Positions 1,456 to 14,050 of a DNA stretch of 64,000 nucleotides are shown in pieces. Position numbers and translations under genes: made by a program. The notes beneath the pieces are model-generated. The model did not search any database and was not told the origin of the DNA. It saw only the letters and a program-made list of their open reading frames with translations. The stretch's first letter is position 1, and every line of letters starts with the position of its first letter. The stretch covers positions 1 through 64,000 of the forward strand of contig UCOA01000109.1 in the NCBI GenBank assembly GCA_900474095.1, read 5' to 3'. This DNA is from Hyphomicrobiales bacterium. GTDB lineage: Bacteria > Pseudomonadota > Alphaproteobacteria > Rhizobiales > Rhizobiaceae.

Positions 1456-1531
1456 TGCAGAATCTCTTTCAACCGGCGCGTTTCAACCGGCAAACGAAAA
1501 ATCAACGTTGCGGGCGCCCTCATAGCGTATC

Positions 1532-1954
1532 CTACTCCCCTGCAGTCCGCCCGGTAGCGGAAAGGCCCAGGGTGATCCGTCCCTGGACAATGATCCGAAC
1601 CGCGGCGTCGGTGTCGCCCGTGGTGGCGTACAGCGCCTGCGCGAGGGCAAGCGGATCAATGCGGTGGGACAGCCACCATTCCCGCTCATTCGTGTCGTGC
1701 TGCGCCCGGTGTTCGTCCGGCGACAGCGGAAGAGTCCAAGCGTCGTCGGGCTTTTGAGCCTTGCCAGTGTGCTTCTTCCGGTAGACCGGGTCCCCGTAGC
1801 GGATATGGCAGGCTTCGCAGCCGTAAACGCCGGATAGCACGCTCGGTAGCCGGCGGATGAACGCAAGGTGGCCTTCGTCGCGAATGCGCTTCTGCGCTCT
1901 ATCTGACGGGTCCTCGCTGAATGCTGTTGAGGGGCGGCGGATTGCAAAGGCCAT
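1532..1954 (-). CDS. DUF968/Ref-like putative nuclease
   Basis: 140 aa. Contains a Cys-x2-Cys-His motif (GCEACHIRYGDPVYRKKHTG, about residues 45-64), then PLSPDEHRAQHDTNEREWW and RIDPLALAQALY. This arrangement resembles the zinc/HNH-like core of DUF968 proteins and the P1 Ref (RecA-dependent nuclease) family, which occur in phage recombination operons. The start overlaps the preceding stop (TAATG). It would fit processing of DNA alongside the Bet-like annealing protein encoded upstream. Assignment is by motif only. Confidence 0.6.
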   Translation of the reverse strand: MAFAIRRPSTAFSEDPSDRAQKRIRDEGHLAFIRRLPSVLSGVYGCEACHIRYGDPVYRKKHTGKAQKPDDAWTLPLSPDEHRAQHDTNEREWWLSHRIDPLALAQALYATTGDTDAAVRIIVQGRITLGLSATGRTAGE

Positions 1955-2175
1955 TACTGCACCAGCTCTTTCGCCATGATCGCTAAGACCTTCAATCGGC
2001 CGGCGATCAGCAGCAGCGCGTTCGTTCCAGGCTGATAACCAACGCTGTCGCGGAAATCGTTCACGCGCTTCATCTCGGCCACTTCGGCACGGAGCTTCAC
2101 ATGGGTATCGACGTAGACCTGAGGCTTTTCAGGTTTGCGGCGCTGGTGAGATTTGACTGTCGTAGTGCCGGTCAT
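1954..2175 (-). CDS. Hypothetical small phage protein
   Basis: 73 aa, basic N-terminus (KSHQRRKPEKPQ) followed by an amphipathic helical region. Not recognised. ATGA overlap with the upstream gene and TAATG overlap with the downstream one place it firmly inside the leftward operon. Confidence 0.55.
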   Translation of the reverse strand: MTGTTTVKSHQRRKPEKPQVYVDTHVKLRAEVAEMKRVNDFRDSVGYQPGTNALLLIAGRLKVLAIMAKELVQ

Positions 2176-2678
2176 GACGCCCTCGCTACTGCAGGGCGGT
2201 CAGACCCGAGAAGATCGGCGAGCGCGTCGAGAACCTTTTCTTTGCTCTCGGCGAATACGCGCTTCCCCATAGCTTTGTAGCTCTGGCTCTGAGCGGTGTA
2301 GACGCGCACCACGGCTTCGCGGACGCTGACGACGGCGTATTGATCGATCGGGCGGATAAATGCTGCCACGCGACGCGCCTCCTGTTTGCTAGCACATACG
2401 ATTGACCGTTCGTCGGCGTAGCCGCATTTCACGAGCATCTTCTTGCGAAGGTGTTCAGCGGTTGGGTATTCGTCCATCAGCGCGTCCGGCAGCGACTGCC
2501 AGGTTTCGCTGATAACAGCGAAGTAATGCGCGTGCGTAGCGTCGCTACGATCGTGATGTTCGGCCAGGCGATAATTCTCACCAATGACGAACTGTTTATC
2601 CGCTTCTCGGGCCCAGTGCGGCGAGGTCGCTTTGAACTCGCCTTCGCCTTGATATTGGAGGAAGATCGGGGCAGACAT
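2172..2678 (-). CDS. Conserved phage protein of unknown function
   Basis: 168 aa, soluble, no signal or membrane segments. It has an N-terminal beta-rich part (IFLQYQGEGEFKATSPHW) and a C-terminal helix (VFAESKEKVLDALADLLG). The overall look recalls DUF1367/NinB-type phage recombination-operon proteins, but I cannot identify it. It lies directly downstream of the Bet-like gene (4 nt gap), so a role near recombination or replication is likely by context. Confidence 0.55.
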   Translation of the reverse strand: MSAPIFLQYQGEGEFKATSPHWAREADKQFVIGENYRLAEHHDRSDATHAHYFAVISETWQSLPDALMDEYPTAEHLRKKMLVKCGYADERSIVCASKQEARRVAAFIRPIDQYAVVSVREAVVRVYTAQSQSYKAMGKRVFAESKEKVLDALADLLGSDRPAVARAS

Positions 2679-2682
2679 TGGA

Positions 2683-3693
2683 TCACCCCGCGCTCAGAAC
2701 GTGATTGCGAAACGCATCATCGACAGGGCGATGCACCGGCGCCGCCAGCTTGGCTTCGATCAGCTTCTTGAGTTCCAGAGCATCGCCAGGATGGCGAGCC
2801 CAGAAGAGCTTGAGCGGGTCCCGGTTCGCATCCTGCCACTTGCGGACAGTCGCCGGCGACTCTTGGTCGACAAACTCGGCGGCGCGGTCGAAGAATTGCC
2901 CGATCGGCACATTCTCAAGGGCATAGGTTTCGCCCCAGAAGACGGTGATCGCATTGTTGCCACCGATGGCCTTCATGCGATGGTCTTCACGTTCCTGCTC
3001 GACAATTTCGGCTGCGGTCAGGTCCAGAACGCGGGCGCGGTCCATTTCCTCTTCGGCATAGACGCCGCCGAACTGCTCCGGCCATCCAGCACGCAAGGCC
3101 TGCGCCTCGGCGCATTTGGTGATCATGACAACCGGCATTTTGCCCCACTGGCCGGATGTGTCGAGAACATCCCGAACTTCGCCTCGCGGAACCTTCCGCT
3201 TCTTCGGCTTGCCGCTGTCAGGCCATTTTTCGCCAGTGTCCTCCCAGTCGTAGCCGCCTTCGGCTTCGTGCTTGATCGGCGCGAACTCGTCCCAATAGGC
3301 TTCACCGACGACCTTGAACCATACGCCGCGACTGTCCTGTTGCCAAAGATATACGCGGGCGAGAACAATACCCTTCGGGTTTGTCGGCGATTTCACCGCT
3401 TCATCAAATTCGATTTCCGCAGGCTCGGAGGCCGGGCGGTAGTTTTTACAGCGTTGAGCAATGACGCGCAGGCCATCACGCGAGACAACGATCGACATAC
3501 GCCGCTTGCTTGCGTCATCGGCGTTCTTGCCGAACACCAGCGGCATGATCTGCTTGCGGAACGGATCCAGCCCGTAGCTTCGTGCCGCCTCCATGAAAAG
3601 ATTGAACTCGTCGGTGTTGCAGTCCCTGGCAACGGTCTGCTGGACAAGCGTGATCTGCCGCGCCGAGAGGTCGAATTTCGTCATCTGGTTCAT
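2683..3693 (-). CDS. bet: Bet/RecT-family single-strand annealing protein
   Basis: 336 aa. The N-terminal half shows the phage Bet signature: DEFNLFMEAARSYGLDPFRKQI, then SIVVSRDGLRVIAQR, VYLWQQDSRG, and the C-terminal MITKCAEAQALRAGWPEQFGGVY. Such proteins bind single-stranded DNA and pair complementary strands during phage recombination, usually with a partner exonuclease. No exonuclease is evident in the visible operon, although the DUF968-like gene could substitute. The start abuts the stop of the Gp157-like gene (TAATG). The C-terminal 80 residues are less conserved-looking. Confidence 0.85.
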   Translation of the reverse strand: MNQMTKFDLSARQITLVQQTVARDCNTDEFNLFMEAARSYGLDPFRKQIMPLVFGKNADDASKRRMSIVVSRDGLRVIAQRCKNYRPASEPAEIEFDEAVKSPTNPKGIVLARVYLWQQDSRGVWFKVVGEAYWDEFAPIKHEAEGGYDWEDTGEKWPDSGKPKKRKVPRGEVRDVLDTSGQWGKMPVVMITKCAEAQALRAGWPEQFGGVYAEEEMDRARVLDLTAAEIVEQEREDHRMKAIGGNNAITVFWGETYALENVPIGQFFDRAAEFVDQESPATVRKWQDANRDPLKLFWARHPGDALELKKLIEAKLAAPVHRPVDDAFRNHVLSAG

Positions 3694-4223
3694 TATCGTC
3701 TCCTGACGGTAAGGCTGAGAGAGCCGTTGTCGAGCATTGCACCTGGGATAATTTCATCGGCCTTGAGGACATCGGCCAAGGCCTTCTTGTCGAGCTTCGG
3801 GGCAGGGCGCTCCTGCTCGACCCAGAACCGGCTCGGAATGTCGGCTTCGTTGGTGACGACGAGTTGCGGCGCGCGCTTGCTGAGCGACAGAGTGGCGCTT
3901 GCGAGTTTGAGTGAAACTTGCTCGGTCGTGATCAGCGCCTGTTCGATCAGTGCTCGGATGCGCTCCGCCCGGTCCTTTTGTTGCTTCTTCCGCGTATCGA
4001 AGGCCTTGATCTTTTCATCCAGCCCAGCGATCAGGATTTCGCACTCGTCAATTTCGGAGAGTGCGGCGTCGAGCGCTTCAAGAAGGTTGGTTTCACCTTC
4101 CAGGCTGTCAGCCACGAGATCGGCATCATCGTCGGCCCCCTGCTGGCGAAGGTTCGTCAGGAGCGCCTTGGCGGCTTCCATCTGGATCATCAAGGTCCGT
4201 TCATTGTTCGGTACAAGTGTCAT
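3693..4223 (-). CDS. Gp157-family phage protein
   Basis: 176 aa from the ATG at 4223, which has a GAGGA ribosome-binding site; an in-frame codon at 4253 is a weaker alternative. Residues about 10-115 are a long coiled coil (NLLEALDAALSEIDECEILI, KKQQKDRAERIRALIEQAL), followed by a beta-rich tail including IPSRFWVEQERPAPKLDKK. This is the siphovirus Gp157 layout. Members are found upstream of phage recombinases and have been linked in annotation to inhibition of host nucleases. Here it directly precedes bet. Confidence 0.75.
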   Translation of the reverse strand: MTLVPNNERTLMIQMEAAKALLTNLRQQGADDDADLVADSLEGETNLLEALDAALSEIDECEILIAGLDEKIKAFDTRKKQQKDRAERIRALIEQALITTEQVSLKLASATLSLSKRAPQLVVTNEADIPSRFWVEQERPAPKLDKKALADVLKADEIIPGAMLDNGSLSLTVRRR

Positions 4224-4916: not shown

Positions 4917-5006
4917 ATTGAGTTGTGACGCTATTTTTGCTGGACCTCAAGAATCGAATCGACTCATTGCTGCCGTTCTGCTTTCATGGAACAAACGGAG
5001 AACAAA

Positions 5007-5246
5007 ATGGGCTATGCAGTTCTGAAATCAGCCGAACCGTTCACGCTCCACATTCGGTGCGAGAACTGCCTGAGAGACAGCTTCAAGGTGGTGGAGATGC
5101 CTGTCGGCGACGACGTGCCACGCGATGCCGACGAACTTATCGAGAGTGTGTACCTGGAAAAAATCCCGTTCCGTTGCCGACCCTGCGATAGCGTCATTGG
5201 CCGGCTGGTTGGGATCAGTGGAGGAGGAGACCCCTATGCCTACTGA
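5007..5246 (+). CDS. Small Cys-motif protein
   Basis: 79 aa from the ATG at 5007, which has GGAG 7 nt upstream; an in-frame ATG at 4986 would add 7 residues. Two Cys-x2-Cys pairs (CENC near the N-terminus, CRPC near the C-terminus) suggest a small zinc-binding protein. Its 3' end overlaps the next gene by 11 nt. Role unknown; as the first rightward gene after the operators it may be expressed early. Confidence 0.55.
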   Translation: MGYAVLKSAEPFTLHIRCENCLRDSFKVVEMPVGDDVPRDADELIESVYLEKIPFRCRPCDSVIGRLVGISGGGDPYAY

Positions 5247-5541
5247 AAGAGACGTCATCCAATACATCATCGTCCCGCCGTTCGAGCAGCGGGATAAGGT
5301 TATCGCGTCGAAAGAGCGACTTGAGCATTACCTGGACAACCGGTTTCCCGGCAACTCGTTCAAGGTCGCACGGTTCGCGCCGATCGGTGACGATCTGGAA
5401 TTCTGTGTGCTGCCGGTCATGAATTTTGTTGGCGACGACGGCAATTCCTACATGTGCAAGGAGCCGAAGCGATGGTTCATGACTGATATCGCTCAAGCCT
5501 GCCGAGAGTTCGACCAGGGCTTACGAAGTGTTGCAGTATAA
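5236..5541 (+). CDS. Hypothetical phage protein
   Basis: 101 aa. The ATG at 5236 is chosen because of the GGAGGAGGAG ribosome-binding site. Soluble, no recognised domain. Co-transcribed and overlapping with the Cys-motif gene. Followed by an AT-rich gap and the convergent RloB-like gene. Confidence 0.55.
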   Translation: MPTERDVIQYIIVPPFEQRDKVIASKERLEHYLDNRFPGNSFKVARFAPIGDDLEFCVLPVMNFVGDDGNSYMCKEPKRWFMTDIAQACREFDQGLRSVAV

Positions 5542-5623
5542 CCCGGCGGTGAGCGTCAGAATTACGGTCGAGTGCCCTTGTGATTCTCGACGCTAAGTGA
5601 CGTGTATGGCCATTATTCCAAAT

Positions 5624-6256
5624 CTATACGCTCAAATCTCGCATGGCATTGGTTAGTAGATCAAAATTTGTAAAGGGCGCGTCGAGCTCTGCTCCCTCAT
5701 CTTTGCGGCGTTGTCTAGTTTTGCTCGCCCTTTTTTCGGCGTCACTAACCCGACCAATAAATTCGTTGCAGTCGGGGTTTTTTCCAGTTTTAACAGAATA
5801 AGATGAGCACAACGTCTCGAAATGGCTCTGTATTTTATGCCTATCGATAGGCTTATCGAAATCCTCGTAATGGAATGTGAGCCAAAGTTCAAAACATGGG
5901 TTGGAGTACGCAACCCCAACGCGGGCACCTTGGCAATTATCGAAAGTCTCCTTTACTTTCAAATGTTCATCTCGGTCAAAGACCACCCAAACCCTGTCGT
6001 CTTTCTCAAAAGAGCTGGAGGCACCCCTGCCACTGCTTGTTCTCAAGCCCTTTTTAAACCGGATAGCTTTTTCGGCAAGGGTCTTCGGGCCACCAGCTCC
6101 GCCTTCTATTTTCAACTTTAGCAGGACGCGAGTTAGGGTATCTTTGTATGCGTGAAGGTACGCAGGCTCGGTGTTCGCGCCCTCACAAAAAATAACAAAC
6201 CTGGCGTAGGGTAGGGTAGTCTCAGTCTTGCGATCGAGTGAAAAGCGTTTTTTCAT
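5624..6256 (-). CDS. RloB-like / AbiLii-like Toprim-fold protein
   Basis: 210 aa. N-terminal motif FVIFCEGANTEPAYL (acidic residue E25) and a DxD motif in WVVFDRDEH (D94, D96) match the metal-binding Toprim-like core of RloB and AbiLii proteins. A conserved-looking AYSNPCFELWLTFHYEDF follows. Family knowledge: these nuclease-like proteins are encoded with an AAA ATPase and belong to restriction-linked or abortive infection cassettes. Its start overlaps the ATPase stop by 4 nt. Base composition is clearly more AT-rich than the neighbouring phage genes, indicating separate origin. Confidence 0.78.
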   Translation of the reverse strand: MKKRFSLDRKTETTLPYARFVIFCEGANTEPAYLHAYKDTLTRVLLKLKIEGGAGGPKTLAEKAIRFKKGLRTSSGRGASSSFEKDDRVWVVFDRDEHLKVKETFDNCQGARVGVAYSNPCFELWLTFHYEDFDKPIDRHKIQSHFETLCSSYSVKTGKNPDCNEFIGRVSDAEKRASKTRQRRKDEGAELDAPFTNFDLLTNAMRDLSV

Positions 6257-7536
6257 TTAACAAACAGGCCAGTCGTTCCAAGAATGTGTTCTAAGCTATC
6301 CGAAAATGGGAGTGCACCGAACCTACCTTCAAGATATCCCCGCTCAAAATTATCTTCTTTTCGCAGCTTGATATCGGAGAGAGAAAATATCCGCGATACT
6401 CCGTCGTTGTTTTTTTCTGCAAACCAAATCTGATCGCGCCTCATGAAGTCGCAATTCAAAATGTTGGTGTCGTGCACCGTTGCGATAATCTGAGCGCCTT
6501 TCGGATTGGACGTAGTGTGGCAAAAAATAGCAAGTATCAATTCAAAAGCCTGGGTATGGAGGCTGGCGTCCAGTTCATCGACTAAAACAACGCCCCCCTC
6601 ATCGATTGTTTGAAATATTCTAGACAGCATAAATACCAGCCGGCGCGTTCCAGCGCTTTCGCGAGCAAAATCGAGGAAAACAGGCTCCCCACTGGAGGAA
6701 CGATGTCCCAGTCTGAAGCTTACCGCCTCCGGCATTTGATCAGGTATTTGATCTCGCGGCATTTTTATGTGCTCGGCAAGCAACGATAACAAGTCCTCAT
6801 GCAATTTACGGTTAGACTCAGGAATTTCCTGTGTATCGAACCGAAATGAAACGACACCCGCCCCGATAACGTCTAGAAACCGCATAACACGTGGATCGAT
6901 GCCTTTTTCCTGTTCTGGAACAGCGCTACCCGAGACAGACACTGCACTATTGATATTAATTTCCCCAAAATATCTGTAAATTGGCGTTAGATCGTCATGA
7001 TCATTTTGCACGGCGCACGAAAGAAAAAGGCTATTATGCCGTGTTAAATCGGCAATAACCTGATTCCTTCCTTTTAATTTTCTGCCGAAATTGTAAATAT
7101 CTTCATCTCGGTTGAACAACATCTGGGCGCGACCGTTTGGGAAGCTGTAAAGTGCCTCTGATAAAACAGTATTCTTGTTGTAAGAGAAAGAATAATTATA
7201 TCGAACAGTGTCGCAAATGAAGTCGATTTCAAAGTACGTTGGTTTTTCTACCGATTCCCTGTCGAACGCGAATGGAATGTATGGAAGGTAATCATCCGGT
7301 CCGGACGCGGAGTGGGAAAATAGAATCATTTGCCTCATGTTTGCGAGGGCGTTGACTATATTGGATTTCCCCGACGCATTCGCGCCGTAAATTACCGCCG
7401 CCGATATTGCCCGTTGGGACATTCCCTTCAATTCGACAAGGCCGCCTTCATGGTCTTTCAGGTTGCTGGCCACAAGTGAAAATTGGGTCAAGTTCCGAAA
7501 AGAGAGATGGTTCTCGAGTGAGAAGCGAAGCAGCAT
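6253..7536 (-). CDS. AAA ATPase of RloA/AbiLi type
   Basis: 427 aa. Starts like other AAA_15/AAA_21 defence ATPases (MLLRFSLENHLSFRN). Walker A at about 51-58 (GANASGKS), an ABC-like signature ESAGTRR at 293-299, Walker B VVLVDELD (D320, E321) and an H-loop TVHDT (H355). Such ATPases are thought to sense infection and license a partner effector, here the Toprim-like protein overlapping its 3' end. The cassette has its own AT-rich upstream region and lies convergent to the early genes and downstream of the repressor gene, so it could be expressed in the lysogen. Confidence 0.8.
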   Translation of the reverse strand: MLLRFSLENHLSFRNLTQFSLVASNLKDHEGGLVELKGMSQRAISAAVIYGANASGKSNIVNALANMRQMILFSHSASGPDDYLPYIPFAFDRESVEKPTYFEIDFICDTVRYNYSFSYNKNTVLSEALYSFPNGRAQMLFNRDEDIYNFGRKLKGRNQVIADLTRHNSLFLSCAVQNDHDDLTPIYRYFGEININSAVSVSGSAVPEQEKGIDPRVMRFLDVIGAGVVSFRFDTQEIPESNRKLHEDLLSLLAEHIKMPRDQIPDQMPEAVSFRLGHRSSSGEPVFLDFARESAGTRRLVFMLSRIFQTIDEGGVVLVDELDASLHTQAFELILAIFCHTTSNPKGAQIIATVHDTNILNCDFMRRDQIWFAEKNNDGVSRIFSLSDIKLRKEDNFERGYLEGRFGALPFSDSLEHILGTTGLFVK

Positions 7537-7830: not shown

Positions 7831-8568
7831 TTAGAACCCCGGCATTTCATTCATGACGCGCCGGACGAGCGCAATAATCTCCACGGATACGCCGTCGTCA
7901 GCCTCACTGTCGTGATGGACGACGATCGGCTTATGCTTCGGATTGGATGAGCGAGGGTGAAACTCCGCCCGGTCGTTATAGAGCTCGATCTGCTTCACCG
8001 ACCATTCCCGGAAATGCCCGCTATCCCGGGTCCGCTGCACCACGACGACCATACCGTCGCGGAGCTGGACCTCATTTGCGACATCCTCATATGCGAGACA
8101 AACCAGTCGGTCGCCGGAGAGGATCGGGCGAGGGCGCAGCTCGTTCAGTGAATCGCCTCCCACGTCAAAAACAAGTTGCCTGGCGTTCGGGAATTTCTCG
8201 TCGCGAGGCAGCAGGATCTCTACCGCTTCGGATTGATCGAATTCGTCGACCTCACGGAACGTGCCAGCTTCAACCGTACCAGCAAGACGGCCGGCAACCA
8301 GGCCGGATCGATACAGGGAAAGCTCAGGCTGCATCCTCGCAGGCCCGTCATAGGCAGCATTCTCGCCGAAAAGGATCCAGCCCGCTTTCGCCCCAAAAAG
8401 CTCACCGTATTTCTCTGCCGCCTTGCGTGAGATCGGCCGGTTGCCGTTCTCATGGCTGATCAGGGTGTTCTTGTTGATATCGCGAGGGAATGCGTTCGCC
8501 GCATCTGTGGGCGATGCAAAGCCTGCAGCTGCCCGGGCATCTCGCAATCTGTCTTTAGGTTCCTTCAT
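7831..8568 (-). CDS. CI-like phage repressor, S24 peptidase family
   Basis: 245 aa from the ATG at 8568. Residues about 3-60 form an HTH (LRDARAAAGFASPTDAANAF). The C-terminal half is an S24/LexA-like autoprotease: the nucleophile serine in FDVGGDSL and the likely catalytic lysine in WSVKQIELY, with PxSxNP-like RSSNPKHKP near the end. An AG pair (LVAGRLAG) in the linker could be the self-cleavage site. It should bind the GTAC operators upstream of its own start and at 4.88 kb and be inactivated by RecA-mediated self-cleavage. No ribosome-binding site precedes the ATG (see the leaderless promoter). Confidence 0.85.
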   Translation of the reverse strand: MKEPKDRLRDARAAAGFASPTDAANAFPRDINKNTLISHENGNRPISRKAAEKYGELFGAKAGWILFGENAAYDGPARMQPELSLYRSGLVAGRLAGTVEAGTFREVDEFDQSEAVEILLPRDEKFPNARQLVFDVGGDSLNELRPRPILSGDRLVCLAYEDVANEVQLRDGMVVVVQRTRDSGHFREWSVKQIELYNDRAEFHPRSSNPKHKPIVVHHDSEADDGVSVEIIALVRRVMNEMPGF

Positions 8569-8569
8569 T

Positions 8570-8642
8570 CGTACATTATGACCGACTTTCATCGTGCAAT
8601 GTGTACGATTTGCTATTGTTATATCGTCGTACTTTTTGTACG
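8570..8642. promoter_or_regulatory. Immunity-region operators (three GTAC-N5-GTAC sites)
   Basis: Three related sites between the divergent repressor and Cro-like genes: CGTAC-ATTAT-GACCG at 8570-8584 (one half degenerate), CGTGC-AATGT-GTACG at 8593-8607 (one mismatch) and CGTAC-TTTTT-GTACG at 8628-8642 (perfect arms). The third lies just upstream of the Cro-like start, the first overlaps the repressor promoter. Graded sites around divergent promoters are the classical lambda-type genetic switch. Confidence 0.75.
8575..8580 (-). promoter_or_regulatory. Putative -10 box of a leaderless repressor promoter
   Basis: On the minus strand CATAAT lies 6 nt before the repressor ATG at 8568, so a transcript starting at normal spacing would begin at or next to the A of the ATG. 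No Shine-Dalgarno sequence is present. Lambda cI made from PRM is also leaderless. The -10 overlaps the degenerate operator at 8570-8584. Confidence 0.4.
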
Positions 8643-8650
8643 ATACGGGA

Positions 8651-8887
8651 ATGAGCAATTCACCTTCTTCCATTTCGGCCCTCATTGATCAGTGGCCCAC
8701 CATCGCCGAATTCGCATCCGATGTCGGTTGCGGGTACGAAGCCGCTCGCCAGATGCGCTTGCGGGAAAGCATTGCTCCGAAGCACTGGCCCGGCGTCATC
8801 GCGGCGTCGGCGGCTAAGGCGATCAAGGGGGTTGATTGGAAGTGGCTGGCTGCTCGCCATGCATCAGCGGTGAGGGAATCAGCATGA
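8651..8887 (+). CDS. Cro-like regulator
   Basis: 78 aa from the ATG at 8651. It has a compact HTH ([22 protein letters not shown]) followed by HWPGVIAAS and a short C-terminal helix. Divergent from the repressor, 8 nt after a perfect operator, and first gene of the rightward early operon: the position of Cro. The next gene starts within its stop (ATGA). Confidence 0.75.
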
Positions 8888-10698: not shown

Positions 10699-11112
10699 AT
10701 GATCGCACAGGGGACCGACAAGATGTTGGGAAGTCACGACAAGGATTTGGGTTTCAAACCCAAGAGGCAGAAGCAGAGCAGGGGCAAGGTTATGAGTGCT
10801 GTTTTTGAAGCTCGAAGCTTATTCCGGGACGCATTCCCCCAGGAGCGGTACGGAAAACTTGAGAACGTTTTCTACGAGGCGCGTCGGTTCATGAACAAGC
10901 TTCTAGAAAAGGACTTCACCCTTCGTCGGGCGCGATCGATTTGGGAGGGCACCGTCCGCCGGATCGATAGCGAAGAAATGGACGCATTGAGATTGGCAGT
11001 CATCGAGGAGAGCCGTCGTGAAAAAGAAGAACTCCGTGCCCGTCTGGATGCGCTGGATGAAAAGCTTGCCGCCTATGAGGCGGCTTCTCATCGGGAAACG
11101 ATGGCGAGCTAG
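10699..11112 (+). CDS. Hypothetical coiled-coil early protein
   Basis: 137 aa. Basic N-terminus (KPKRQKQSRGK), a central helical domain (AVFEARSLFRDAFPQERYG, KDFTLRRARSIWEGTVRRID) and a C-terminal coiled coil (SRREKEELRARLDALDEKL). Probable DNA-associated early protein; family not recognised. An in-frame internal ATG (MLGSHDKD) could be the true start. Confidence 0.6.
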   Translation: MIAQGTDKMLGSHDKDLGFKPKRQKQSRGKVMSAVFEARSLFRDAFPQERYGKLENVFYEARRFMNKLLEKDFTLRRARSIWEGTVRRIDSEEMDALRLAVIEESRREKEELRARLDALDEKLAAYEAASHRETMAS

Positions 11113-11490: not shown

Positions 11491-12165
11491 TCATTCTTGG
11501 ACCAGATAGACTTCCGGCTCACCGACGGTTCGATGGACGGGGATCGTCATCGTTCTTGTCCCGGGCGTGCCGACCAGCTCGTATCGGAAAGACACCGTGG
11601 CCTGATCCCATTCGCTGTTGATGCCAATGTACGTGTCGTCAGTATTGGGACGTCCAAACAAAGCGACAAATCGAAGTTCGTCGGTAGGGGGTGCGTTGTT
11701 CTGATTAAGCCAGCCCTCAACAATCCGAACTGGAGACAGTTCCAGCTTCGGCGCAGCATAATCGCGCTGATTCCCGTTGAGAGAGAGAACGGCGATCATG
11801 TTGAATGGATGGAGAAATTCGATCTCGCGCAGCACCAGGGATCGACGGTTCCAGTTGACGATACGGATCACAACTTTAGAGTCGCTGCGGACGTGCTGCA
11901 CGGCATCGAATGTAGGTTCTGCGTCGCCAAGGGTGAAATCAGTCTGCGCCTGTTGAGCTTGCACCTGCCTTACCAGGACGCCGATCGTGAGGGCAGCGGC
12001 CGCCGCGGCCGCCCAGCCGCTCATGGCCCCGACCCATTCTCTAAAACAATTGCCTTCCCCACGACAAAGGACCACTTCGCTCGGCGTGGAAAGGAAGAGG
12101 TAGGCTATAAATACGGCCATCAATATGAACGGCCCCAACCAGTCCCAAAAGCTCGCAGGCTTCAT
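11491..12165 (-). CDS. Membrane-anchored protein, paralogue A
   Basis: 224 aa. Two N-terminal hydrophobic segments (about 8-25, FILMAVFIAYLFL; and 47-68, AMSGWAAAAAAALTIGVLV), then a short coiled stretch (RQVQAQQAQTDF) and a cytosolic beta-rich domain with GDAEPTF and RIVNWNRRSLVLREIEF. The gene at 13388-14050 has the same layout and motifs (GDAEPEF, VINWNRRNVMIEKV), so they are paralogues. Minus-strand orientation against the early operon marks it as cargo. It is adjacent to the HNH nuclease gene (75 nt downstream of it). Function unknown. Confidence 0.65.
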   Translation of the reverse strand: MKPASFWDWLGPFILMAVFIAYLFLSTPSEVVLCRGEGNCFREWVGAMSGWAAAAAAALTIGVLVRQVQAQQAQTDFTLGDAEPTFDAVQHVRSDSKVVIRIVNWNRRSLVLREIEFLHPFNMIAVLSLNGNQRDYAAPKLELSPVRIVEGWLNQNNAPPTDELRFVALFGRPNTDDTYIGINSEWDQATVSFRYELVGTPGTRTMTIPVHRTVGEPEVYLVQE

Positions 12166-12240
12166 ACTTTCCCTCTCAGTCCCCGCTGGCAGCTAAGCGC
12201 GACTGCGGTTGCAAATCAATCGGTGCGCGACGGAACGACG

Positions 12241-13041
12241 TCAGTAGATCTCGATCGCCTTCATCTTCTTCAAAAGATCGCCATTGTATTCTGTACCGTC
12301 GGCGCCGGAATGAACGCGTCGATGACAGTTCGGACAAAGGGCTATAACGAAACGTGGGTCATCTGGTCCGCCGTCCGTCAGCCGGCGAATATGGTGTGGT
12401 TCCAGGTAGGGAATGCCGTTCTTTCGCAGGAAGGGGGCTGGGCTGGCGCAGCCTTCGCATTTACCGATTGCTCTCGCCACGACATAGTCGCGCACATCTT
12501 GGCTCCGCTCGAATACGGAAGTGATCGACGTGGATTTCGACGGCGCGGGATTGGCCGCGGCGAACGCCTTAAGCCTCAGCAGTTCCAGATTTGCCGACGC
12601 CGGCGCCAGGTCTTCAATCGCTTCAATGACGCTCTCAACAGGACGCAGCTCGAAAACTATCGCGTCCCTCATGCTTCCCATTCGATCGGGCGCAGGTTCG
12701 GTGTGGTGCTTTTCGTAGACGTATTCGCCTTCAAATCGGAGTCCAGCTTTCATTTTCCTGAAGAGAAGGAGGCTGGCGCCGTTTTTCGAATGACTGGCGA
12801 TCGCCGCGTTTCCCCGCTGCATAGTCATGTCGCCAAGTTGCCCTTCGCCGAAGTATTCGAAGGCACCGTCCGGGCGCAGGCGGTCGGCATATCCGTGAGC
12901 CAACCCTTCATCACCCGTGATAATGACCACGAGCTTGAATGCGGACGGCGTGATGATGCCGCCTTGTTGCTGACCGCCGAAGCGGCCATGAATATCAATT
13001 CGCCGATTGTAAATACGGCCGCGCTCAAAGCCCCACGACAC
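12241..13041 (-). CDS. ScoMcrA-like SRA-HNH endonuclease (type IV restriction)
   Basis: 266 aa. Residues about 1-132 match the SRA-like domain seen in ScoMcrA-type nucleases (WGFERGRIYNRRIDIHGRFG, GGIITP, GDMTMQRGNAAI). Residues 190-245 are an HNH module: C195-x2-C198, HH at 216-217 (YLEPHHIRRLTDGG), C236-x2-C239-H240 and H244. Such enzymes recognise modified DNA (methylated or phosphorothioated) and cleave nearby. In a prophage this would exclude other phages carrying modified genomes. The S. coelicolor protein also has an extra sulfur-binding domain that is absent here, so the recognised modification is unknown. Confidence 0.75.
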   Translation of the reverse strand: MSWGFERGRIYNRRIDIHGRFGGQQQGGIITPSAFKLVVIITGDEGLAHGYADRLRPDGAFEYFGEGQLGDMTMQRGNAAIASHSKNGASLLLFRKMKAGLRFEGEYVYEKHHTEPAPDRMGSMRDAIVFELRPVESVIEAIEDLAPASANLELLRLKAFAAANPAPSKSTSITSVFERSQDVRDYVVARAIGKCEGCASPAPFLRKNGIPYLEPHHIRRLTDGGPDDPRFVIALCPNCHRRVHSGADGTEYNGDLLKKMKAIEIY

Positions 13042-13124
13042 CGAAAACTCCTCCGTACTATTCAGCCTTCGGTTGTCTCATGTCGGCATTTCGTTCGGGT
13101 TAACTCCGCTCTCGCGAGGGCAGA

Positions 13125-13325
13125 ATGACCTCGCCAGAAGAAATGCTTGTCTGGCTCGATGGCAGAATAGCCAGCACCGAAGCTTGGCTTCACGGCCACG
13201 GCCCGGGAACAAAGCGCCCGTGGCCCGCTACCGATATCGAGGCCAAGGAAAACAACCTGTCGAAGTACCAGGAAATCCGCGGTGCTTATTTGCAAGCGCT
13301 TAAGCGCAGATCGGCGGCGGCATGA
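13125..13325 (+). CDS. Hypothetical early protein
   Basis: 66 aa, plus strand, consistent with continuation of the early operon after the cargo block. Contains MLVWLDGRIASTEAWL and a helical C-terminus. Not recognised. Confidence 0.5.
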   Translation: MTSPEEMLVWLDGRIASTEAWLHGHGPGTKRPWPATDIEAKENNLSKYQEIRGAYLQALKRRSAAA

Positions 13326-13387
13326 AGCCGATTCTTGCAGCTCTGTTAAAAGAATACGACGTTCTTATTATGGAACCGGTGAGCGAT

Positions 13388-14050
13388 TTAGTCGTCGCTG
13401 ATGTCAAGAGCCACCGCCCTTGTGGTTCGGCGCTCGTGGCTCTGGCCCACGATTCTGTAACTAATGTCTACAGCCACCGCAGAACCATCATAGCCCAAGT
13501 CTTCCCGAGCCTCGCCACCGATCGCGAATGTTATCAGGAGTTTCCTCTGGGTTGGAGGTTTCGTGCGATCAAGCCACGAATCCACTCTGAAGTCCGGGAT
13601 ATTGCGCTTGCGTGCTCGTTTGGTCCAAGCTGGGTTATTTCTCAGATCGTGAAGATTAAAAACCTCGAGACCCCCATTGTCGACACAGGCGACCTTTTCG
13701 ATCATTACATTTCGACGGTTCCAATTGATGACTTTGAGCGTCATTCGCTTGGCGGCCCTATTTCTCTGCAGCACGAATTCAGGCTCGGCATCGCCCACCA
13801 TAAAGTCCGACTGACGTTTTGCCTGATGGACCTGTTCCCTCAGCGGCTTGAGCGTCACCGCTGCGGCGACGAGTGCTCCGAGCGCGGCTACCCAACCACT
13901 CAAAGCACTCAGCCAGCTCAGTATGTTGCAGTCATCGCAAGCGGGCCAAGCCTGCCAGGCAACAAGGTCCGGCAAGAACCTCATCACAAATACAAACGCC
14001 ACGAGAGCAAGCCCGGACGTTACCGTCACGCAAAATCCTTTGTCCGACAT
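13388..14050 (-). CDS. Membrane-anchored protein, paralogue B
   Basis: 220 aa. Two N-terminal transmembrane segments (about 9-30, VTSGLALVAFVFVMRFL; and 45-67, WLSALSGWVAALGALVAAAV), followed by LREQVHQAKRQSDF, GDAEPEF and LKVINWNRRNVMIEKV. The same architecture and motifs occur in the protein encoded at 11491-12165. The two copies flank the HNH nuclease gene, all on the minus strand within the rightward early operon. Divergence between the copies is high. No function known to me. Confidence 0.65.
   Translation of the reverse strand: MSDKGFCVTVTSGLALVAFVFVMRFLPDLVAWQAWPACDDCNILSWLSALSGWVAALGALVAAAVTLKPLREQVHQAKRQSDFMVGDAEPEFVLQRNRAAKRMTLKVINWNRRNVMIEKVACVDNGGLEVFNLHDLRNNPAWTKRARKRNIPDFRVDSWLDRTKPPTQRKLLITFAIGGEAREDLGYDGSAVAVDISYRIVGQSHERRTTRAVALDISDD

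Follow-up and report, generated by a model that had tools for sequence, protein, structure and literature searches.

An SRA-HNH endonuclease and DNA C5-methyltransferases exclude each other in phage records, and in three phage groups they occupy the same site. The endonuclease examined here is encoded in a prophage of a Hyphomicrobiales bacterium, within a 64,000-nucleotide stretch of DNA (contig UCOA01000109.1, positions 1 to 64,000, assembly GCA_900474095.1), hereafter the window, which is contig 119 of a 6.4-Mb genome. As the initial annotation had described, three minus-strand open reading frames (ORFs) lie inside the rightward early operon of this prophage. The middle one encodes the nuclease, and the outer two encode M1 and M2, membrane proteins of a family, M, that belongs to no Pfam or PHROG family and appears to be new. 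Phage records and loci carry L numbers below, and genomes carry G numbers.

Identification of the SRA-HNH endonuclease

The middle gene (12241-13041, minus strand, 266 amino acids with a GTG start) was assigned from profiles, alignments, and a structural model. Its product matches Pfam HNH (8e-8), is covered almost end to end by PHROG 15103, a family without annotated function (3.7e-86), and is matched in its HNH part by PADLOC type IV models (1e-15). A phmmer search of the PDB matched this HNH part to EcoKMcrA, ScoMcrA, and TagI, and matched the ScoMcrA SRA domain weakly. In an AlphaFold2 model built from a 22-row alignment (predicted local distance difference test, pLDDT, 84), residues 1-136 (12634-13041) form an SRA fold, with VIA Z scores of 12.0 to SUVH5, 12.0 to the ScoMcrA SRA domain, and 10.3 to TagI at root-mean-square deviations of 2.9-3.0 over 122-134 residues; Foldseek gave E 3.9e-8 to 5zmn. 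Residues 134-266 match EcoKMcrA (6ghc) at Z 10.0, the sequence match to 6ghc being confined to the HNH part (residues 167-250). The initial annotation had called the protein an McrA-like SRA-HNH nuclease, and the SRA fold and the McrA-like HNH domain bear this out; the likeness to EcoKMcrA stops at the recognition domain, where the NEco domain of that family was not found and residues 1-136 are SRA instead.

The HNH (beta-beta-alpha metal) nuclease domain occupies residues 195-245 (12307-12459, minus strand) by Pfam HNH and by alignment with McrA and TagI. H217 and H240 align with the catalytic His229 and His254 of TagI, and the zinc cysteines C195, C198, C236, and C239 are all present. H244 stands at the site of TagI Asp258, as in McrA, and F231 at the position of an Asn that the TagI authors, in the excerpted text of their report, term non-catalytic. 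In the SRA domain, Y51, D53, and Y63 align with ScoMcrA SRA and are invariant in the 22-row alignment; judging from excerpts of the TagI paper (PMC6212794), these would be residues of the flipped-base pocket. With an N-terminal SRA domain and a C-terminal HNH domain that retains its catalytic and zinc residues, the middle gene is a phage-borne SRA-HNH (type IV-like) endonuclease, for which cutting of 5-methylcytosine (m5C) DNA is the predicted specificity. Across 62 distinct viral clusters, the SRA-HNH gene is antisense in 47 and co-directional in 12. Outside the host family, it was found in 2 of 384 other genomes of the class sample.

Mutual exclusion with C5-methyltransferases

Because a phage that cuts C5-methylated DNA should not make such DNA, whole records were tested for the C5-methyltransferase profile PF00145. 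The SRA-HNH records comprised 16 plus 50 of 61 further records, drawn from the best 80 of 89 matches; left out were L170 and 11 mostly divergent F116-like records (L324-L328, L330-L332, L334-L336). The comparison set comprised 24 records with M only and 50 of 72 records with gene X, which flanks the variable site described below, and 0 of these 74 loci had an SRA-HNH profile match within the stretch examined. PF00145 was found in 0/16 and 3/50 of the records with SRA-HNH and in 7/24 and 14/50 of those without it. The three matches among the former are scraps of about 50 positions from the C-terminal end only, one of them above the cut-off. A match to the catalytic part occurs in 0/66 records with SRA-HNH versus 21/74 without (Fisher p 3e-7), and the difference persists if all three scraps are counted (p 2e-4), in records of at least 30 kb (0/52 versus 19/62), and after clustering (0/58 versus 20/66, p 7e-7). 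The adenine-methylase control MT-A70 was not depleted (12/50 versus 7/50, p 0.31); its profile matched 0 of 14 named control genomes, so that there was no positive control there.

The 50 gene-X records were chosen by hand after a slot screen had flagged some methyltransferases. Twenty of the 22 omitted records were in that screen, where none was flagged, and the other two (L136, L138) lay outside it. Counting all 22 as methyltransferase-free gives 0/66 versus 21/96 (p 7e-6), or 3/66 versus 21/96 (p 0.003) with the three scraps included.

The same depletion is seen at the level of the host. Among 297 host-family genomes, 24 have SRA-HNH matches, 11 of them full length; PF00145 is present in 2 of these 11 versus 173 of the 286 others (p 0.009). 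The window's own genome has no PF00145, and leaving it out gives p 0.018. Genomes with M only are not depleted of PF00145 and are if anything enriched (14/17, p 0.046). In genome G140 (contig 80; L029/L042), the SRA-HNH gene is split between reading frames, and this genome has a C5-methyltransferase.

Nuclease and methyltransferase at one site

Loci L266 and L064 are 86% and 88% identical in their two flanks, between which L266 carries SRA-HNH (5001-5807) and L064 a C5-methyltransferase (1520-3703). The latter is on the opposite strand to the L266 nuclease, and its last ~30 bases lie inside the shared flank.

In the window, the variable site is flanked by two plus-strand (sense) genes, X (10699-11112) and Y (13125-13325), neither of which matched a Pfam family. 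Gene Y falls within the examined stretch in 27 of 80 gene-X loci. The slot between X and Y holds an antisense SRA-HNH gene, as in the window, in 5 of the 27 (L001, L003, L004, L109, L170), a sense-strand methyltransferase in another 5 (L054, L057, L143, L155, L176), neither gene in 17, and both in 0. The methyltransferase of L155 was assigned by hand, having been missed by the three-seed search with its overlap rule.

In the F116-like group, the relatives are divergent, co-directional, and 39-42% identical. In six records (L320, L322, L323, L332, L334, L335), the nuclease gene lies directly upstream of the 3' remnant of a C5-methyltransferase gene; a stretch of 66 residues of the L322 remnant shares 82% identity with the end of the phage F116 enzyme. 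F116-like sequence is found upstream in L320, L322, L330, and, over a short length, L327; downstream it occurs in L315, L320, L325, and L334. The arrangement in the six remnant records looks as if the nuclease had displaced an F116-type C5-methyltransferase gene. Ahead of the nuclease, L320, L322, L323, L325, L328, and L330 carry an N-terminal fragment that resembles a methyltransferase. We are less sure that these fragments are methyltransferase remains, since the 74-residue piece in L322, which matches phage methyltransferases over half its length, gave no match to PF00145.

Thus, nuclease and methyltransferase occupy the same site in all three phage groups. This suggests that phages choose between marking their own DNA and attacking marked DNA.

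A modular family of membrane proteins

M1 (11491-12165, minus strand, 224 amino acids) lies downstream of SRA-HNH and co-directional with it, and M2 (13388-14050, minus strand, 220 amino acids) is separated from the nuclease by gene Y. The initial annotation had proposed that the outer genes are paralogs with a two-helix anchor, and this was confirmed. An alignment of 176 columns gives M1 and M2 29% identity (E 8e-16), and the two share the motifs GDAEP and VNWNRR/INWNRR. The AlphaFold2 model of M1 (30-row alignment, pLDDT 84) has an anchor in residues 1-79 (11929-12165) with helices at 6-25 and 41-79, followed by a beta-sandwich head in residues 80-224 (11494-11928), with both motifs close to its start. 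A scan of 30 members at E 0.01 gave no PHROG match and one marginal Pfam PH match (0.0097), and M1 and M2 at E 1 gave only chance-level matches in Pfam and PHROG. Across the class sample, the 384 genomes outside the host family gave no M match. In the phage collection, which was queried with M2 and not with M1, there was none at E 0.01; an M1 query gave one weak plasmid match.

An SGW motif opens the second helix, and in 27 of 30 members the preceding 25 residues include at least 2 cysteines; basic residues number 2.2 per 16 residues after the second helix versus 1.3 per 18 in the loop. This pattern is consistent with a cysteine loop in the periplasm and a head in the cytosol. M probably has a two-helix inner-membrane anchor, a periplasmic cysteine pair, and a cytosolic head. 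Inspection by eye found no convincing Esc-type internal second start.

The anchor is better conserved than the head (mean identity over all pairs 35% versus 21%). Anchor identity between window M1 and the M of L043 is 71%, against 20% for their heads; for L063 and L067, the values are 75% and 15%. In the latter pair, the similarity of the DNA takes in 44 base pairs (bp) of upstream sequence, the anchor, and the following gene, with the head excluded. The DNA similarity of window M1 ends ~195 bases into the gene in comparison with L057 and ~245 bases in comparison with L043. In L050, L057, L078, and L079, a head that appears helical, judged by eye from the sequence, sits on a similar anchor. 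In 27 of 31 loci, M runs antisense, and the single co-directional locus (L072) is AT-rich and poorly called. M therefore looks like a modular, head-swapping antisense cassette.

The initial annotation had regarded M1 and M2 as duplicates. On a 53-row tree of M, M2 groups with four relatives from loci without the nuclease in a starred five-row set that excludes M1, and M1 falls in no starred set. Local duplication at this locus is therefore rejected, and M1 and M2 appear to be separately acquired members of one modular family. Loci L049, L069, and L086 each have two M-family genes within a few kb and no SRA-HNH, so that pairing of M genes is independent of the nuclease. Other small membrane proteins are encoded on the same strand near SRA-HNH or M in L010 (6903-7538), L044 (7455-8492), L048 (3741-4799), L082 (6310-6999), and L266 (~5906-6538), and none of these five had a PADLOC match.

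Association of M with the nuclease

M adjoins SRA-HNH in six lineages and in both orders: M, nuclease, M in the window and L012; M, nuclease in L014 and L059; and nuclease, M in L043 and L072. The gap between the nuclease and the following M is 0, 0, and 9 bp in L012, L072, and L043 and 75 bp in the window, and gaps this short make it probable that the two are co-transcribed where they meet.

The pairing is nonetheless rare. M lies within 2.5 kb of SRA-HNH in 4 of the 62 distinct viral clusters, and 58 have none; 42 of 48 distinct M loci have no adjoining SRA-HNH. Fourteen of these 42 were examined with 1.5-kb flanks only, and their genomes gave no SRA-HNH match. M occurs in 18 of the 297 host-family genomes, and the only genome with both M and SRA-HNH is the window's own. 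On the 53-row tree, the eight M proteins linked to HNH are dispersed (7 label changes versus a shuffled mean of 7.5), and in L001 and L003 the nuclease stands between X and Y with M1 absent from the slot. The pairing thus recurs, yet it is neither obligate nor inherited as a unit. The initial annotation had suggested that the three genes form a composite exclusion module, had proposed a search for co-occurrence, and had named as arguments against such a module that the membrane proteins occur independently of nucleases and leave restriction unaffected. The search did recover adjacency in six lineages; on occurrence counts, independence is largely what was found, and a composite module as a rule is rejected.

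Setting of the locus in the prophage

The prophage repressor is encoded at 7831-8685 on the minus strand (a weak S24 match, 21.1 bits against a cut-off of 23.3), and the rightward early operon, which includes a GapR-domain gene, follows it. Among the three antisense genes, only SRA-HNH and M1 are adjacent and co-directional, and because the plus-strand gene Y sits between M2 and SRA-HNH, the three do not form one uninterrupted operon. Beside the repressor is an overlapping minus-strand pair resembling the abortive infection genes AbiLii/AbiLi (5624-6256 and 6253-7536), with PADLOC matches of 3.8e-85 for AbiLi and 1.5e-22 for AbiLii. Its presence fits a prophage armed against competitors.

Proposed mechanism and alternatives

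We consider it probable that these are exclusion genes expressed in the lysogen, with the nuclease directed against m5C-marked DNA and M a membrane exclusion protein that is SieB-like without being homologous to SieB. This reading builds on features computed directly, namely the folds, the intact residues, the antisense setting, the exclusion and site sharing with the methyltransferase, and the mosaicism of anchor and head. Regions antisense to lytic genes have been termed characteristic of prophage accessory loci in a transcriptomic study (PMC7067206, excerpted text); given the antisense setting of SRA-HNH and M, we therefore propose that these genes would be expressed in the lysogen. They would be lysogeny-type accessory genes, set antisense into the lytic early operon. 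The SRA domain would flip and bind 5-methyl- or 5-hydroxymethylcytosine, and the HNH domain would cut near the bound base, so that a lysogen could destroy incoming C5-marked DNA, including that of related temperate phages encoding a C5-methyltransferase. Since a C5-methylated genome would be a target for the phage's own SRA-HNH, a phage would keep either the methyltransferase or the nuclease, each replacing the other at the same place. M1 and M2 would act at the inner membrane, most likely as superinfection-exclusion proteins with specificity set by the head.

A broader version, in which the site is an exchangeable conflict slot with a C5-methyltransferase "cloak" and an m5C nuclease "weapon" as alleles, accompanied by head-swapping M cassettes whose cytosolic heads choose the rival, is put forward tentatively, as a conjecture that could well prove wrong.

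Several observations weigh against the main reading. No clear promoters of their own emerged for the antisense genes: upstream regions of M outscore those of sense genes and exceed their own shuffles by a small margin (p 0.019), and those of SRA-HNH do not exceed shuffles (p 0.86). Structural matches of the M1 head are to many unrelated, generic beta sandwiches and stay within the noise range of the tool (best Z 7.8), and for this reason the function proposed for M is drawn from context and architecture. G212 and G249 have a full-length SRA-HNH together with a C5-methyltransferase. Within gene-X phages alone the exclusion is non-significant on small numbers (0/5 versus 16/52, p 0.31), one of the 21 methyltransferase matches (L139) is broken by a stop, and the phage records may lack parts, share descent with one another, and represent different phage groups.

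The nature of M is where the nearest alternative arises, in which SRA-HNH acts as proposed and M proteins are something other than exclusion proteins, such as abortive effectors that damage the membrane or factors that alter the envelope or signalling of the host in the lysogen. A head whose likeness to characterised families goes no further than a generic beta sandwich would allow this, and the apparently helical heads of some members imply that head function could be diverse; the antisense setting in early operons, and heads that differ where anchors and flanks are alike, are in keeping with conflict between phages without proving it, and we regard the alternative as unlikely. It is more improbable still that M anchors or activates SRA-HNH at the membrane, forming a composite restriction module that cuts injected DNA on entry. 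The adjacency in six lineages and both orders, the gaps of 0 to 9 bp, and the repetition of the window's order in L012 speak for such a module, against which stand the rarity of adjacency from either side, the single shared genome, and the scatter of HNH-linked M on the tree. In addition, window M1 and the M of L043 each directly follow SRA-HNH, and their heads, as noted above, share 20% identity.

Finally, HNH genes are common in phages, and many generic PHROG HNH families match the protein more weakly, as would be expected if it were an ordinary packaging or homing endonuclease with an incidental likeness to SRA. The clear SRA fold with invariant putative pocket residues, the antisense orientation, and the specific lack of C5-methyltransferase in SRA-HNH records make this very hard to credit. 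Exclusion by lysogen-expressed genes remains our preferred reading.

Comparison with known systems

The window enzyme resembles EcoKMcrA in its HNH domain, in its predicted modification dependence, and in carriage by a prophage. EcoKMcrA is carried by prophage e14; it recognizes DNA through a NEco domain, in place of which the window enzyme has SRA. With TagI, ScoA3IV, and other SRA-HNH enzymes, as described in excerpts of PMC6212794, it shares the N-terminal SRA domain, the C-terminal zinc HNH domain with catalytic histidines, and a predicted pocket for m5C or 5-hydroxymethylcytosine. It differs from TagI and ScoA3IV, as far as those excerpts go, in being phage-borne and antisense in an early operon and in matching PHROG 15103 end to end, and from TagI in having Phe231 at the non-catalytic Asn and H244 for Asp258. 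HHPV4I, an HNH enzyme with an SRA domain that is likewise encoded by a virus, has been proposed to exclude other viruses; according to the excerpt of its report, it comes from an archaeal virus, has an extra winged helix, and reads Gm6ATC, unlike the window enzyme.

There are precedents for a Dcm-like methyltransferase and a methylation-dependent nuclease coming into conflict within one cell. In a study of McrBC (PMC2614495), the cell is reportedly killed upon methylation. A bacterial conflict between the PcaRCI methyltransferase and the PcaRCII HNH endonuclease is reconciled by promoter methylation, according to excerpts of PMC8989522. Both of these cases are bacterial and are either reconciled by promoter methylation or end in cell death, whereas here the two genes alternate at one phage site.

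For M, the closest parallel is SieB. SieB is a membrane protein encoded antisense to the early operon, a setting that M shares, with its two N-terminal helices and its antisense orientation in 27 of 31 loci. M has no sequence relation to any Pfam or PHROG exclusion family in the searches with 30 members and with M1 and M2 at E 1. Like SieB of P22 and lambda, as described in parts of PMC7067206 and PMC12197685, M is a small prophage protein with a putative role in exclusion; unlike SieB, it is modular with differing heads and has shown no internal second product.

SRA-HNH enzymes, methyl-dependent defence, and methyltransferase/nuclease conflict were already known. The alternation of nuclease and methyltransferase at one site in phages, and the M family, appear to be new. 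A literature search of titles and abstract openings returned no report of SRA-HNH/C5-methyltransferase alternation in phages, which is weak evidence of absence. For phage-phage conflict over DNA methylation, the locus provides a scheme that can be tested directly, in which related temperate phages have either a marker or a predicted cutter at one site. M, in which similar anchors bear dissimilar heads, shows the pattern expected of diversifying exclusion specificity.

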